Assembly: GCA_021798875.1 (NCBI GenBank) | Contig: JAJZBN010000007.1 | Coordinates: 1 to 64,000, forward strand | Source of the DNA: a bacterium | GTDB lineage: Bacteria > SZUA-79 > Acidulodesulfobacterales > Acidulodesulfobacteraceae | DNA: 64,000 nt | Reading direction: 5' to 3' | In this document: positions 49,949 to 54,952 of the stretch, one piece after another | Layout: the number at the start of each line of letters is the position of its first letter | How positions within the stretch are numbered: position 1 is the first letter of the stretch | Position numbers and translations under genes: made by a program | Notes under the pieces: model-generated | The model's database searches: none | What the model was told of the DNA's origin: nothing | The model's input: only the letters and a program-made list of their open reading frames with translations

Positions 49949-51985
49949 TTAATTATCTTTTGCATATTTCAAGGGCACCTTATTCCCGTAGTATGTCCAA
50001 AAACGGCTTCTGTCTGCCTTGTGGGCTTTAGCTTCGTAAAGAGCCTGGTCGGAGAAACGGATAAGTTCTAAGGGGTTATATAATTCGATAGATTCGCCTG
50101 CGGTCGTTAAAAGGGTATCGCCGACGCCTTTTTTATCCGCAACGTATTTATTTGAAAACGGATATAAAACTACTCCCATACTTAAGCCGATTTTAACCGA
50201 AGTATTTATATTGTCCTTTATATGTATAGGCTCTAAAATCAGTTCCCCTATTTTATCTATTATTTTTTCTAAAGTATCTACGTCATCCAAATATTCTATT
50301 AAAAGAACAAACTCGTCTCCGCCCAATCTTGCTACAAAGTCGGTTTTCCTTAAACCTTTCTGCAAACGTTCCGATGTAACCTTAAGTACGACGTCTCCGG
50401 CATCGTGCCCGTAAGTATCGTTAATCTGTTTAAAGCCGTCTAAGTCTAACATGCATATAGCCATTAGCTTTTTGTTTCTGTTAGCTCTTTCGACGGCGCG
50501 TTCAAACTCAATTTCTAAAGCCCTTCTGTTGGGAAGATTCGTTAGAGAGTCTGTGATGGATTGACGCAAAAGTTCTTCCGCGAGATAGTGTCTTTCGGTA
50601 ACGTCCATAAAAGTCCAAACGATTAAAGGATGTTCCTGCTCTCCCATAATCCTTTGGCCGGAAACGTCGACATAAATTAAAACTCCGTCTTTGCGTTTCA
50701 TCTTGAGATCTCTTAAATAAGCGCTGCCTTTAATTAAAGCTTCCTGAATAATGGCAAGCATTTGTTTGGCGCTTTCTTCATCGTCGGGATAAAAAATATC
50801 TTTGGTGAAATGCCCTAAAACTTCTTCTTTATTGGAATAGCCTAAAATATTTAAAAACCCGCGATTAGCTTCTATAATTATTTTTTCAGGATGTCTAATC
50901 AAAACTATGCCGGTTGCGGTATTAGATAATAAAGCCTCCTGCAATTCGATAAGTTTGCGTATAGTCTCTTGGCTTTTATGTCTTTCCGTGACGTCCACTT
51001 CCGTCCAAACTATACGCTCCGGCTCTCCAGGCTTAGACGGCAGTTTTTGTCCGGAAATATCTACATATACCAAAGAACCGTCAAGACGTAAATAAGGTAC
51101 GTCGTTAAGCAATCCTTCGCCTTTAGATAGAATAGTTTCGGCTAATTTGCCTACTTTTTCGTACGACTCCGAATCCGGAAAAAACTCCCTCATAGGATGC
51201 CCTACCATATCTTCTACGGAAGAAGCGCCGTATATTTGCAGAGTGCGCTCGTTTACCAATTCCATAACCCTTTCCGGATAACGTAAAACATTTATGCCTA
51301 CGGTAAGATTGCTAAGCAAAAGCTCGTTAAATTTTCTTAAATCTTCCCTGCGGATTTCGTCGTCCATTCTGTCGAGCGCTAAACCTATATCGTCGGCAAG
51401 CTGCAATAAAACGGATTTTATATCTTCGTCGAAAAGTTCTTTTTCTTCAATGTAAAAAGCTATAACTGCATAAATCTCGCCTTTTTTGAAAACAGGTATC
51501 GCGGAACTTTTTGCTATGCCGCAAATTTTTGCACGCTTGCGCCAAGGCTTTCCTCTTTCATCGCTAAAAAAGTCAAAATTAAATATAGGTTTTTTACTTC
51601 TCCAGACCTGACCCATAACTTCTTGCCCTTCGGGTAAGTCTTCTCTGGCGGATATAACGATGCCTTCTAAGTAACCTATTTCTCCGGATTTGGCAAGCAT
51701 CTTATATAGTCCGTTTTCGTCCGGCATGCCAATGCAAGCAAGACGAATGTCTGAGTATTGACGGGCAATATAGCAGATTTCGTTAAAGAGTTTCTTTTCG
51801 TCTTTAACTTTAGCTATTATCTGATTGGCAGTCTTGAGCATTGCCGTAAAACGCGTCAGTTTTTTATTGTGCTCTAAAGATTTTTGCAATGCGTTTTTAA
51901 GTTTTTCCTGTTCGGTTACATCCGTCCAGCTTGCTATTCTAACTGTTTTACCTTTATATATTACCGAATCCGCATAAATATACAT
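49949..51985 (-). CDS. PAS/GAF/GGDEF signalling protein, C-terminal part (diguanylate cyclase)
   Basis: A 678-codon frame that is the C-terminal part of one larger gene with 51961-53055. It starts inside a PAS domain (MYIYADSVIYKG), then has a GAF domain (about 55-205), two PAS domains (about 215-335 and 340-465) and a GGDEF domain (about 475-640). The GGDEF motif is intact (ARLGGDEF near 556), with an RKTD inhibitory site five residues before it, so c-di-GMP synthesis with product feedback is expected. The apparent start has no good ribosome site; the true gene begins at 53055, with a frame change at 52003-52009. Confidence 0.85.
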   Translation of the reverse strand: MYIYADSVIYKGKTVRIASWTDVTEQEKLKNALQKSLEHNKKLTRFTAMLKTANQIIAKVKDEKKLFNEICYIARQYSDIRLACIGMPDENGLYKMLAKSGEIGYLEGIVISAREDLPEGQEVMGQVWRSKKPIFNFDFFSDERGKPWRKRAKICGIAKSSAIPVFKKGEIYAVIAFYIEEKELFDEDIKSVLLQLADDIGLALDRMDDEIRREDLRKFNELLLSNLTVGINVLRYPERVMELVNERTLQIYGASSVEDMVGHPMREFFPDSESYEKVGKLAETILSKGEGLLNDVPYLRLDGSLVYVDISGQKLPSKPGEPERIVWTEVDVTERHKSQETIRKLIELQEALLSNTATGIVLIRHPEKIIIEANRGFLNILGYSNKEEVLGHFTKDIFYPDDEESAKQMLAIIQEALIKGSAYLRDLKMKRKDGVLIYVDVSGQRIMGEQEHPLIVWTFMDVTERHYLAEELLRQSITDSLTNLPNRRALEIEFERAVERANRNKKLMAICMLDLDGFKQINDTYGHDAGDVVLKVTSERLQKGLRKTDFVARLGGDEFVLLIEYLDDVDTLEKIIDKIGELILEPIHIKDNINTSVKIGLSMGVVLYPFSNKYVADKKGVGDTLLTTAGESIELYNPLELIRFSDQALYEAKAHKADRSRFWTYYGNKVPLKYAKDN

Positions 51986-53055
51986 CCAAAGTTCTTCGCC
52001 TGTTTTTTTAATGCCTTAAACGTTACGTAATGTTTATAGCCGATATCGGTAAGGCCTTTTTTAATGGAGTCTTTTGCTGTTTCTTTATGTTCTTCGGCTA
52101 ATACATCCCAGAAGTATTTATCTTTAAGTTCTTCCGCAGTATAGCCCAACATGACTTGAAGAGCGGGATTGGCATAAATAAATTTATCGGTATGCATGTC
52201 TAATCCAAGCGGCATGTTTTCTGCAAGGGTTCTAAACGTTTCTTCCGATTCTTTAAGTTTATTTTCGAGGATTTTCTTTTCGGTTATGTCGGTTATTGTC
52301 GCCTGAATATAAGTTCTGCCGTTATAAACGGTAGAACTTATAGTAGTTTCCACGTCCCTTATTTCCCCGTTTTTAAGCCTGTGTTTAAAAACGGCAAAAT
52401 TAGAACCTTCTTTTAGCGCTTTCATTCGGAAATTTTTTAAATCTTTATCCGATATAAAAGGGTTTATAACTTTTATATCCATATTTCTGAATTCTTCTTT
52501 TGAAAATCCGTAAAAATCTACCGCTCTTTTATTGGCATTTATTATGATGCCGGTTTCTAAATCTATAATTAAAGATACCGATGGAAAATTATCGAAAAAC
52601 GCCTCAAGTTTCTTTTCCGTAGATTCAGACTTTTCCTTTGCTTTTTTAGCGGATTCTATTTCTGACATGAAATCGGTTATATTTGTATGGGATTCAAAAA
52701 ATAAAAAAGAATCCGAATCGTCCCTAAAAGCCTCTACTTTGTATAAATGACCTTTATGATTATGAATTACGTTGGAAATATTTTTATCTTTATTTTCTTT
52801 AAGTTCCATTATGGGGCATATTTCTCCCATTTCGTGGCAGGGCTTATCGTAACCGTGGGATATTTGGTAGCATTTTCCCAAGGATTCGTTTATTTCATTA
52901 TTTCGTTTTTCGGGGGGGGGGGGGGTGAATAGGCTTGAATAGGTTTCTTTAGCGGTTTTATTTAAAAATACAACGTCGCATTTATCGTTGATTGCTAATA
53001 TCGGACATAAAATTTTATCGAAAACAAAGTAGTCTTCCGGCGGAACTTCTTTCAT
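51961..53055 (-). CDS. PAS-domain N-terminal part of the split sensor gene
   Basis: A 364-codon frame: PAS 1 (about 8-120) with the unusual cysteine pattern C62-x10-C73-x6-C80 and His in between (KCYQISHGYDKPC then GEICP), PAS 2 (about 145-265) and most of PAS 3 (about 270-350). It ends 25 bp after the next frame begins. Adding one A to the A7 run (52003-52009) joins the frames in the middle of PAS 3, giving one protein of about 1,030 residues. A 14-C tract lies near codons 44-48. It could be a broken gene, a phase-variable one, or a sequencing error in the run. Confidence 0.82.
   Translation of the reverse strand: MKEVPPEDYFVFDKILCPILAINDKCDVVFLNKTAKETYSSLFTPPPPEKRNNEINESLGKCYQISHGYDKPCHEMGEICPIMELKENKDKNISNVIHNHKGHLYKVEAFRDDSDSFLFFESHTNITDFMSEIESAKKAKEKSESTEKKLEAFFDNFPSVSLIIDLETGIIINANKRAVDFYGFSKEEFRNMDIKVINPFISDKDLKNFRMKALKEGSNFAVFKHRLKNGEIRDVETTISSTVYNGRTYIQATITDITEKKILENKLKESEETFRTLAENMPLGLDMHTDKFIYANPALQVMLGYTAEELKDKYFWDVLAEEHKETAKDSIKKGLTDIGYKHYVTFKALKKQAKNFGCIFMRIR
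52003..52009 (-). repeat. A7 run at the frame junction
   Basis: Coding-strand A7 in the KALKK codons. Eight As would fuse the two frames to read KALKKTGEELWMYIYADS, a normal PAS sequence. Confidence 0.8.
52912..52925 (-). repeat. C14 homopolymer in coding sequence
   Basis: Fourteen consecutive Cs on the coding strand encode the end of Thr44 and Pro45-48. It is by far the longest G/C run in this AT-rich window. Its place near the start makes it a classic site for slipped-strand on/off switching. Confidence 0.9.
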
Positions 53056-53296: not shown

Positions 53297-53671
53297 TTAT
53301 ATCGCTATTTCTTTATTTAAAATATCGCGGACAAGCCGCAATCTTATATATTTTTCTGAGTAATATTCTATCTGTGCAGCAACTGAGGATGCCTTTTCTT
53401 CCGCATCTTCTATGGATTGCGATAATTTATCTTTTTTTGCTTTTAAACTTTCCTGCTTTTCTACGATATCCGCGCTGATATCCATAATCTGCGACAGTAA
53501 AGCGTTTTCATTCAAATTTTCATCCTTATAACCGGCAGAGATCAAGCAATCTAACAACAAAAGTTTATTTTCGCCTATGTGCTTTTTTATATTCTCTGTT
53601 TCTTCTTTTATATCCCTAATTTTTTTGGCATCATCGGCTATTTTTTCCATTTTTTGCAGCCAAGAACGCAT
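53297..53671 (-). pseudogene. YhaN fragment (coiled-coil part)
   Basis: A 124-codon coiled-coil frame. Read back through 53696-53760 in the same frame it continues from KWDDIWEGIKITPLVPREMR, a typical YhaN/SbcC-like segment. It stops at LRLVRDILNKEIAI, where full YhaN runs on to the ABC signature and Walker B, so the C-terminal ATPase half is lost. It is the tail of the decayed gene at 53813-54952. Confidence 0.75.
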
Positions 53672-53812
53672 TTCACGCGGAACAAGAGGGGTTATTTTTA
53701 TACCTTCCCATATGTCGTCCCATTTGACGGTTAACCGTTCTTTTGCGACTCGGCTTTATCTTCTTCTATTTTTGATAAATTTGATAAAAAAATAGCCTTT
53801 TTGGAAACCAAT

Positions 53813-54952
53813 TCAGATTTTTTCCAGAGCTCGTCGCTTATACGGTCGGCGTTGGATGAGTTTTTTTTCATAGGCGGGGACAAATGTTTTTGAATTTAAT
53901 TTGCTTATTGCATCAGAAATTTCTAAAATTTTGTCTTCAAGTTTAACGTATTTATTTGCCAAAGAAGCAATGTTCTTGCTTTCTTGCAAACTTAACGTTA
54001 ATTGCGAAGTTTCTTTCGTCGAATCACCAGGCCTTATTTGAGAAACTAGAACTATTTCTTTGCCGCCGTTTACCAAATCATCCATGCCGAATCCGAACAT
54101 ACTGCCGAAAGAAGATTCGTCGATTCCAAAAATAAATTTTTTAAGGATTAACGGATCCAATTCATTTCCGTTTTCGTCAAGAAACGTCCTTAAATGCCCT
54201 TTTCGTCTTTGAAAAACTAAACTTTCTCCCGATGAATTTTCTATTTTTGCAAATATTCTTAATTTATTGCCGTCAAATTTAAAACTGTCGACGGTTCTTT
54301 CTTTTTTAATTCCGAAAAAAAGAGATTTAACCGCCCTTAATGTCGTCGTTTTTCCAGATTCGTTATGTCCGTAAACTATGCGGAAATTTTCCCGACCATC
54401 AAAATTTATAGTTTTATCTATAAACTGACCATAAGGTTTTAAACTCATCCAGATTATTTTCGAAGTGTGAAGAACGCCCACGTTAAATACACTTTTTTCT
54501 GCTTGCGGATAATTGGAAGCCAAATTTTCTTTTACGGCAGGAGCGGAAAAACTTTGACCGTGAATTGCTATATTGAGGTTTTTTAAATAAAATGTTTCGG
54601 GATGTTTAGAGGAAAATATTTTTATTCCTTCCGGCAATTTTAAATTTTTGGTAATTTTACTTTCGGCATCATGATTTCCTTTGGCTATAAAAACATTAAT
54701 ACCGTTTGACGTCAGTTTGGATAATTTGTTTAATAAAAATAAACCGGTATTGTAATCTTTCCAATCTCCGTCATACATATCCCCTGCTATTATAACAAAA
54801 GATACCTCTTCCTCTACCGCTAAATCTACAAGTTCGGACAGAGCCTTTCTTGCCGCCCCCCTGATTTCTTCTACGGGAGCGCCTTCATAATTTTCAAGCC
54901 CTATTAGCGGACTGTCGAGGTGAATATCTGCTGCATGAATAAACTTAATCAT
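53813..54952 (-). pseudogene. YhaO-YhaN fusion remnant (SbcD/SbcC-like)
   Basis: A 379-codon frame made of two genes. Residues 1-165 are the first half of a YhaO/SbcD metallophosphoesterase (HAADIHLDS, IAGDMYDGD, AKGNHD). At GVLHTS it switches in frame to the start of a YhaN/SbcC ATPase (MSLKPYGQFIDK, with Walker A YGHNESGKTTT). A deletion has joined them, losing the YhaO C-terminal half. Near residue 355 the frame shifts; the next frame carries ISDELWKKSELVSKKAIFLS and a stop. Several lesions show it is decaying. Its start overlaps the next gene by 4 bp. Confidence 0.82.

Follow-up and report, generated by a model that had tools for sequence, protein, structure and literature searches.

Slippage-prone poly-G/C tracts at c-di-GMP genes of a bacterial genus without detectable MutS1 or MutL point to probable simple-repeat phase variation

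Introduction

Is a diguanylate cyclase gene in this bacterium switched by slippage at homopolymeric runs? The question was raised by the window, by which we mean the whole 64,000-nucleotide stretch that was analyzed (G000:C53:1–64000, 36% GC), taken from a genome of 2.5 Mb in 126 contigs. A gene with PAS, GAF and GGDEF domains on its minus strand carries a C14 run and is split at an A7 run, and the original prediction was that a change in the length of either run would turn the protein on or off. Homopolymer phase variation is best known from the surface structures of host-associated bacteria. Here the gene itself was analyzed together with its homologues, and long G/C runs were followed through the genomes of the genus.

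Results

The gene consists of two overlapping open reading frames (ORFs) in different frames (Table 1). By Pfam, the upstream ORF contains a PAS domain at residues 149–257 and a cut-off PAS domain at 272–326, and the downstream ORF contains GAF, PAS, PAS and GGDEF domains in that order. The architecture originally proposed was recovered as PAS, PAS (cut off), GAF, PAS, PAS and GGDEF, with the exception of its first PAS domain; the N-terminal ~140 amino acids gave no Pfam match, yet are conserved among homologues. The upstream ORF shows ~62% identity over ~350 residues to PAS-GGDEF proteins of ~690 amino acids from five related species. The GGDEF domain is predicted to be a diguanylate cyclase, as both the active-site motif and the RKTD motif are intact. 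A set of 231 residues is invariant among four orthologues, and the window gene keeps 175 of these versus 159 in the intact G014 copy, so there is no excess decay in the window gene and no sign of long decay. The earlier statement that the output end, with its GGDEF and RxxD sites, is not decaying held up.

Table 1. Coordinates of the features of the split PAS-GGDEF gene in the window
Feature	Position	Strand	Remarks
Upstream ORF, 364 aa	51961..53055	-	Cys/His-containing conserved N-terminal domain, PAS, partial PAS
C14 homopolymer (G14 on +), codons 44–48	52912..52925	-	Pro residues; loop not present in homologues
A7 run at frame junction, third PAS domain	52003..52009	-	One base short versus in-frame PAS homologues
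Downstream ORF, 678 aa	49949..51985	-	PAS end, GAF, PAS, PAS, GGDEF
GGDEF (diguanylate cyclase) domain	50144..50557	-	Exceeds Pfam cut-off, E 1.4e-37
RKTD inhibitory-site motif, five residues, then GGDEF active-site motif	50309..50350	-	Sequence KGLRKTDFVARLGGDEF

The frames of the two ORFs part at the A7 run (T7 on the plus strand), which is where the split had been predicted. Such a run is by itself ordinary, being one of 92 A/T runs of exactly 7 in the window. The closest PAS homologues (G013 and G002) also have A7 and a continuous frame; relative to these two, the window copy is missing one base at the T/A junction before the run. On this comparison the frame lesion need not involve a change in the length of the A run, and A7 as a proven switch was rejected as stated because G013 and G002 carry the identical run in frame. 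A full-length protein requires that both the C run and the A7 site be in frame. The sequenced allele fails at the second of these, whereby no full-length protein would be obtained at any length of the C run. The two runs, which had been treated as equivalent on/off sites, are thus not interchangeable: a reading frame kept open by C14 still stops at the A7 lesion.

Product of the downstream ORF could be formed only through internal initiation or a change of frame. With the former, translation from the ATG at 51985 alone would give a GAF-PAS-PAS-GGDEF enzyme that is no longer coupled to the N-terminal sensor, and the overlap of 25 bases between this ATG and the upstream stop permits re-initiation. 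The start lies inside a PAS domain, however, a strong Shine-Dalgarno sequence was not seen ahead of it (preceding sequence ACAGGCGAAGAACTTTGG), and the orthologues are continuous, so a split gene of this kind appears quite unlikely. We consider it very unlikely that some full-length protein arises through a frameshift at A7, whether programmed or incidental (−1 slippage of the ribosome on A AAA AAA, or slippage of RNA polymerase). The slippery heptamer A AAA AAA does occur in the −1 register (zero frame TTA AAA AAA CAG), but A7 runs are common, in-frame homologues need no shift, and no stable RNA structure was found downstream of A7 (z-score 0.17). Programmed frameshifting at A7 was rejected on this last point, the structure expected to stimulate it not having been found.

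A difference in A-run length was seen at another locus, a GGDEF-EAL gene that has A7 in G000:C97 and A8 in G015:C25 within DNA that is otherwise 99.3% identical; the C97 copy is shortened to 435 amino acids, versus 556 in G015:C25. The two loci (L064 and L252, respectively) come from two species and share this identity over 5.46 kb, with the differences clustered and including, besides A7/A8, a G10 promoter run versus GGGTGTG. Their near-identity may reflect recent transfer or binning exchange.

The C run was confirmed as exactly 14 bases (G14 on the plus strand), close to codon 45 as predicted. None of 100 dinucleotide shuffles of the window reproduced a run of this length, and the second-longest G/C run in the window is 6; its length far exceeds chance, in keeping with the earlier remark that it is striking in AT-rich DNA. 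None of nine aligned homologues has residues at this position, and judged by that alignment the run is an in-frame insertion in a loop, unique to the window gene. A comparison of run lengths with relatives, in which a single fixed length was to count against switching, does not apply to this site as framed because the homologues have no tract there. When alleles were computed, C12, C13, C15 and C16 all terminated at codon 52–56, and C14 left the frame open as far as the A7 lesion. The C run would then act as a translational switch, with 14 (± multiples of 3) on and other lengths stopped by codon 52–56. Of the two switches predicted, the C run is borne out in that changes of one or two bases in its length would stop translation; the A7 run is not, homologues sharing it in frame. 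C14 was also considered as a promoter spacer and rejected, as the promoter test (see below) singled out neither strand at this run.

G/C runs of at least 9 are present in all 16 genomes of the genus, 100 in total. In G000, 17 runs of exactly 7 (among the matches listed) compare with 16 of at least 9, so the lengths do not follow a geometric tail and are instead bimodal. The relation of the long runs to listed GGDEF domains was derived from search coordinates, with observed and expected counts based on the identical set of listed domains and HD-GYP genes left out of the count. Within 2.5 kb of such a domain lay 18 of the 100 runs, versus 3.0% expected (binomial P 1.3e-9, although the 100 tracts are not independent, since orthologous loci are included and those at C88 and C121 are one locus). 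For runs of exactly 7, a comparison restricted to genomes listed in full, the figure was 2 of 132, and the two classes differed within the same eight genomes (Fisher P 1e-4). Narrowing the distance to 1.5 kb left a weak enrichment (6 of 100 runs of at least 9, P 0.013, listed GGDEF domains), and relative to runs of exactly 7 there was none (1/55 versus 2/132, Fisher P 1.0). It emerges from 2 kb upward, as expected if a gene of 2 kb starts with the tract and ends with the GGDEF domain. The majority of the 100 tracts lie away from c-di-GMP genes.

On the G strand, 10 of the 100 runs have a TTGA box on their 5′ side and, immediately 3′, a TAT-AT box, versus 1 of 100 on the opposite strand and 3 of 1422 among short G4–6 runs. 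These ten runs fill a predicted −35/−10 spacer, mostly ahead of diguanylate cyclase genes. For seven of them the next ORF is a GGDEF ORF, and the tract at the C88 end, an eighth, comes from the same locus as C121; the spacer tract at G015:C99 is followed by a short ORF and, further downstream, by a GGDEF gene that is broken. Orthologues of the window gene have such promoter-spacer tracts in G005 (G14) and G004 (G12). Together with the stops computed for C12, C13, C15 and C16 in the window gene, these tracts in relatives place the repeats where a change in length would alter protein or expression. Members of a 669-aa PAS-GGDEF family differ in where the run lies: G000:C121 and G003:C45 have it in the promoter, G005:C20, G004:C5 and G003:C65 have it beside the start codon, and G000:C97 and G015:C25 lack it. 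These differing positions suggest repeated gain.

A further tract was found at the 3′ end of a gene assigned by Pfam as a GAF-HD-GYP phosphodiesterase (L061:3988-5778 and its orthologues L253–L266). The run is present in 7 of 14 species, with lengths of 10, 12, 13, 13, 15, 16 and 20 G, and absent in six; G015 has a scaffold gap at the site, and G011 has one just after the run. A change in length here would be expected to affect only the tail of the protein. Lengths of homologous tracts thus vary between genomes, both for this 3′ tract (10–20) and for the promoter tracts of the window-gene orthologues (14 and 12). Within the G000 assembly, one promoter tract occurs at two contig ends as G13 and G11 (C88/C121) with otherwise matching flanks, as expected from a mixture of lengths. 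This pair is suggestive only, as the C88 end is noisy and noise after a homopolymer at a contig end means that the difference may be partly technical. Sequence past the homopolymer also looks noisy in the right-hand copy at C108 and at the start of G015:C47. The C108 locus (L067:4001-4113) has the same tract as C12 and C20 on the two sides of an N run, with one flank noisy, and is an assembly break.

A miscount of one or both runs of the window gene, through sequencing or assembly, has to be weighed against these data, as the window comes from a single metagenome-style assembly of many contigs, and sequence after long G runs is noisy at some contig ends. The C14 run, however, lies in the interior of its contig, where both flanks are homologous to the same protein, and A7 is short for an assembly error. 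Moreover, poly-G occupies promoter spacers in one orientation (10 versus 1), and homologous tracts recur across genomes that were assembled independently. We regard a miscount as unlikely.

The genomes were also searched for mismatch repair. The MutS1 family (MutS N-terminal domain family, PF01624) went unmatched in all 16 genomes of the genus and in all 14 others of the family, whereas it is present in 28 of 31 outgroup genomes. Likewise, the MutL family (PF01119) gave no match in any of the 30 family genomes (G000–G029). Positive controls were detected in 11/14 and some genomes are incomplete, but incompleteness does not account for an absence in 30 of 30. Campylobacter and Helicobacter are not known to possess MutSL repair. 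According to a paper on porA, mononucleotide phase variation rises 100- to 1,000-fold when mismatch repair is lost (PMC3639595).

The lack of detectable MutS1 and MutL also bears on a serious rival explanation, namely that the window gene is a pseudogene, decaying after frame loss, in which C14 is a neutral expansion in a genome lacking mismatch repair. The frame loss at the A7 junction is consistent with this, as are homologues without C14 and the state of the neighboring yhaO/yhaN-like genes (53297–54952), which look fused and truncated (partial Metallophos and partial AAA_27), i.e. older decay. On the other side, the reading frame stays open over 364 codons in one half and 678 in the other, neither GGDEF nor RxxD is damaged, and conserved residues are no less well retained than in the intact G014 copy, so that any death of the gene would be recent; C14 is in frame, and neutral expansion does not predict a genus-wide enrichment at c-di-GMP genes. 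We give the pseudogene reading real weight, at clearly less than an even chance. Most likely, the sequenced allele belongs to the tract set as a formerly constrained member that was broken recently or is secondarily off.

Discussion

The observed runs, their positions and enrichment, the promoter architecture, the differing lengths at homologous sites and the lack of MutS1 and MutL matches lead us to favor, with a probability of roughly two in three, simple-sequence-repeat phase variation: slippage-prone G/C tracts would be carried genus-wide with a preference for c-di-GMP genes, in a lineage lacking detectable MutS1 or MutL. From the same sequence data we infer that tract length would switch within populations, and that length-dependent expression and any phenotype would follow. 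The proposed mechanism is that tracts prone to slippage accumulate on c-di-GMP genes, in the −35/−10 spacer, at the ribosome-binding site, in coding sequence or at the GAF-HD-GYP 3′ end, and that their slippage would produce random differences in c-di-GMP level from cell to cell. Random switching of the c-di-GMP network looks likely. The core of the original prediction, slippage control of a c-di-GMP gene, was strengthened by the GGDEF enrichment, the promoter poly-G and the missing MutS1 and MutL, and the part it gave to A7 was not.

Several known systems resemble parts of this arrangement. The porA promoter of Neisseria meningitidis also has poly-G in the −35/−10 spacer (9–11 G, versus 10–14 here), but porA encodes a surface protein, whereas the genes here are mostly predicted diguanylate cyclases, for which control by tract length is proposed; the window gene differs further in that its run is in coding sequence and not in a promoter (PMC3639595). 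In Clostridioides difficile, pdcB and pdcC are likewise c-di-GMP enzymes under phase variation, although they are phosphodiesterases controlled by inversion of promoter DNA via site-specific recombination, and not mostly cyclases with simple repeats as here (PMC9286219; PMC11868660). The tail-only switching predicted for GAF-HD-GYP has a counterpart in Helicobacter canadensis, in which poly-G near the 3′ end of coding sequence alters the C terminus only, in genes that differ from the GAF-HD-GYP gene (PMC2823697). Poly-G/C tracts have been cataloged genome-wide as candidate switches in the Campylobacter phasome, again similar, but in a host-associated genus, whereas here the tracts concentrate on c-di-GMP genes (PMC6321876). 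The examples of phase variation in c-di-GMP enzymes that a 2025 review gives concern phosphodiesterases, whose switching is epigenetic or occurs through DNA inversion (PMC11868660), and a literature search limited to open-licence papers found no diguanylate cyclase controlled by a simple repeat. Simple-repeat phase variation as such is already known; its concentration on diguanylate cyclases without detectable MutS1 or MutL is new.

If this reading is correct, poly-G promoters of diguanylate cyclases in cells without detectable mismatch repair would leave the choice of lifestyle partly to replication slippage. A broader proposal, that the family hedges its bets over the c-di-GMP network through repeat slippage made frequent by the loss of MutS1 and MutL, is more tentative and falls a little short of even odds; several diguanylate cyclases, the HD-GYP phosphodiesterase, and genes for a flagellin and a sigma factor would switch independently, giving many heritable c-di-GMP states per clone.

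Long G runs were also noted at other genes. In G014:C1 (L164) and G010:C32 (L199), a gene of the sigma-70 family loses its frame at a G10 run, and in G014 this split gene lies directly upstream of the window-gene orthologue. An EcoRI-type methylase gene contains a G15 run in G003 (L176:2002-3162), and in G000 a G10 run lies shortly before the probable start of a gene for a HindVP-type endonuclease (L063:3-1073); both are candidates for restriction-modification switching. In G005, a G11 run was found 140 bases upstream of a flagellin gene (L183:1878-3009).
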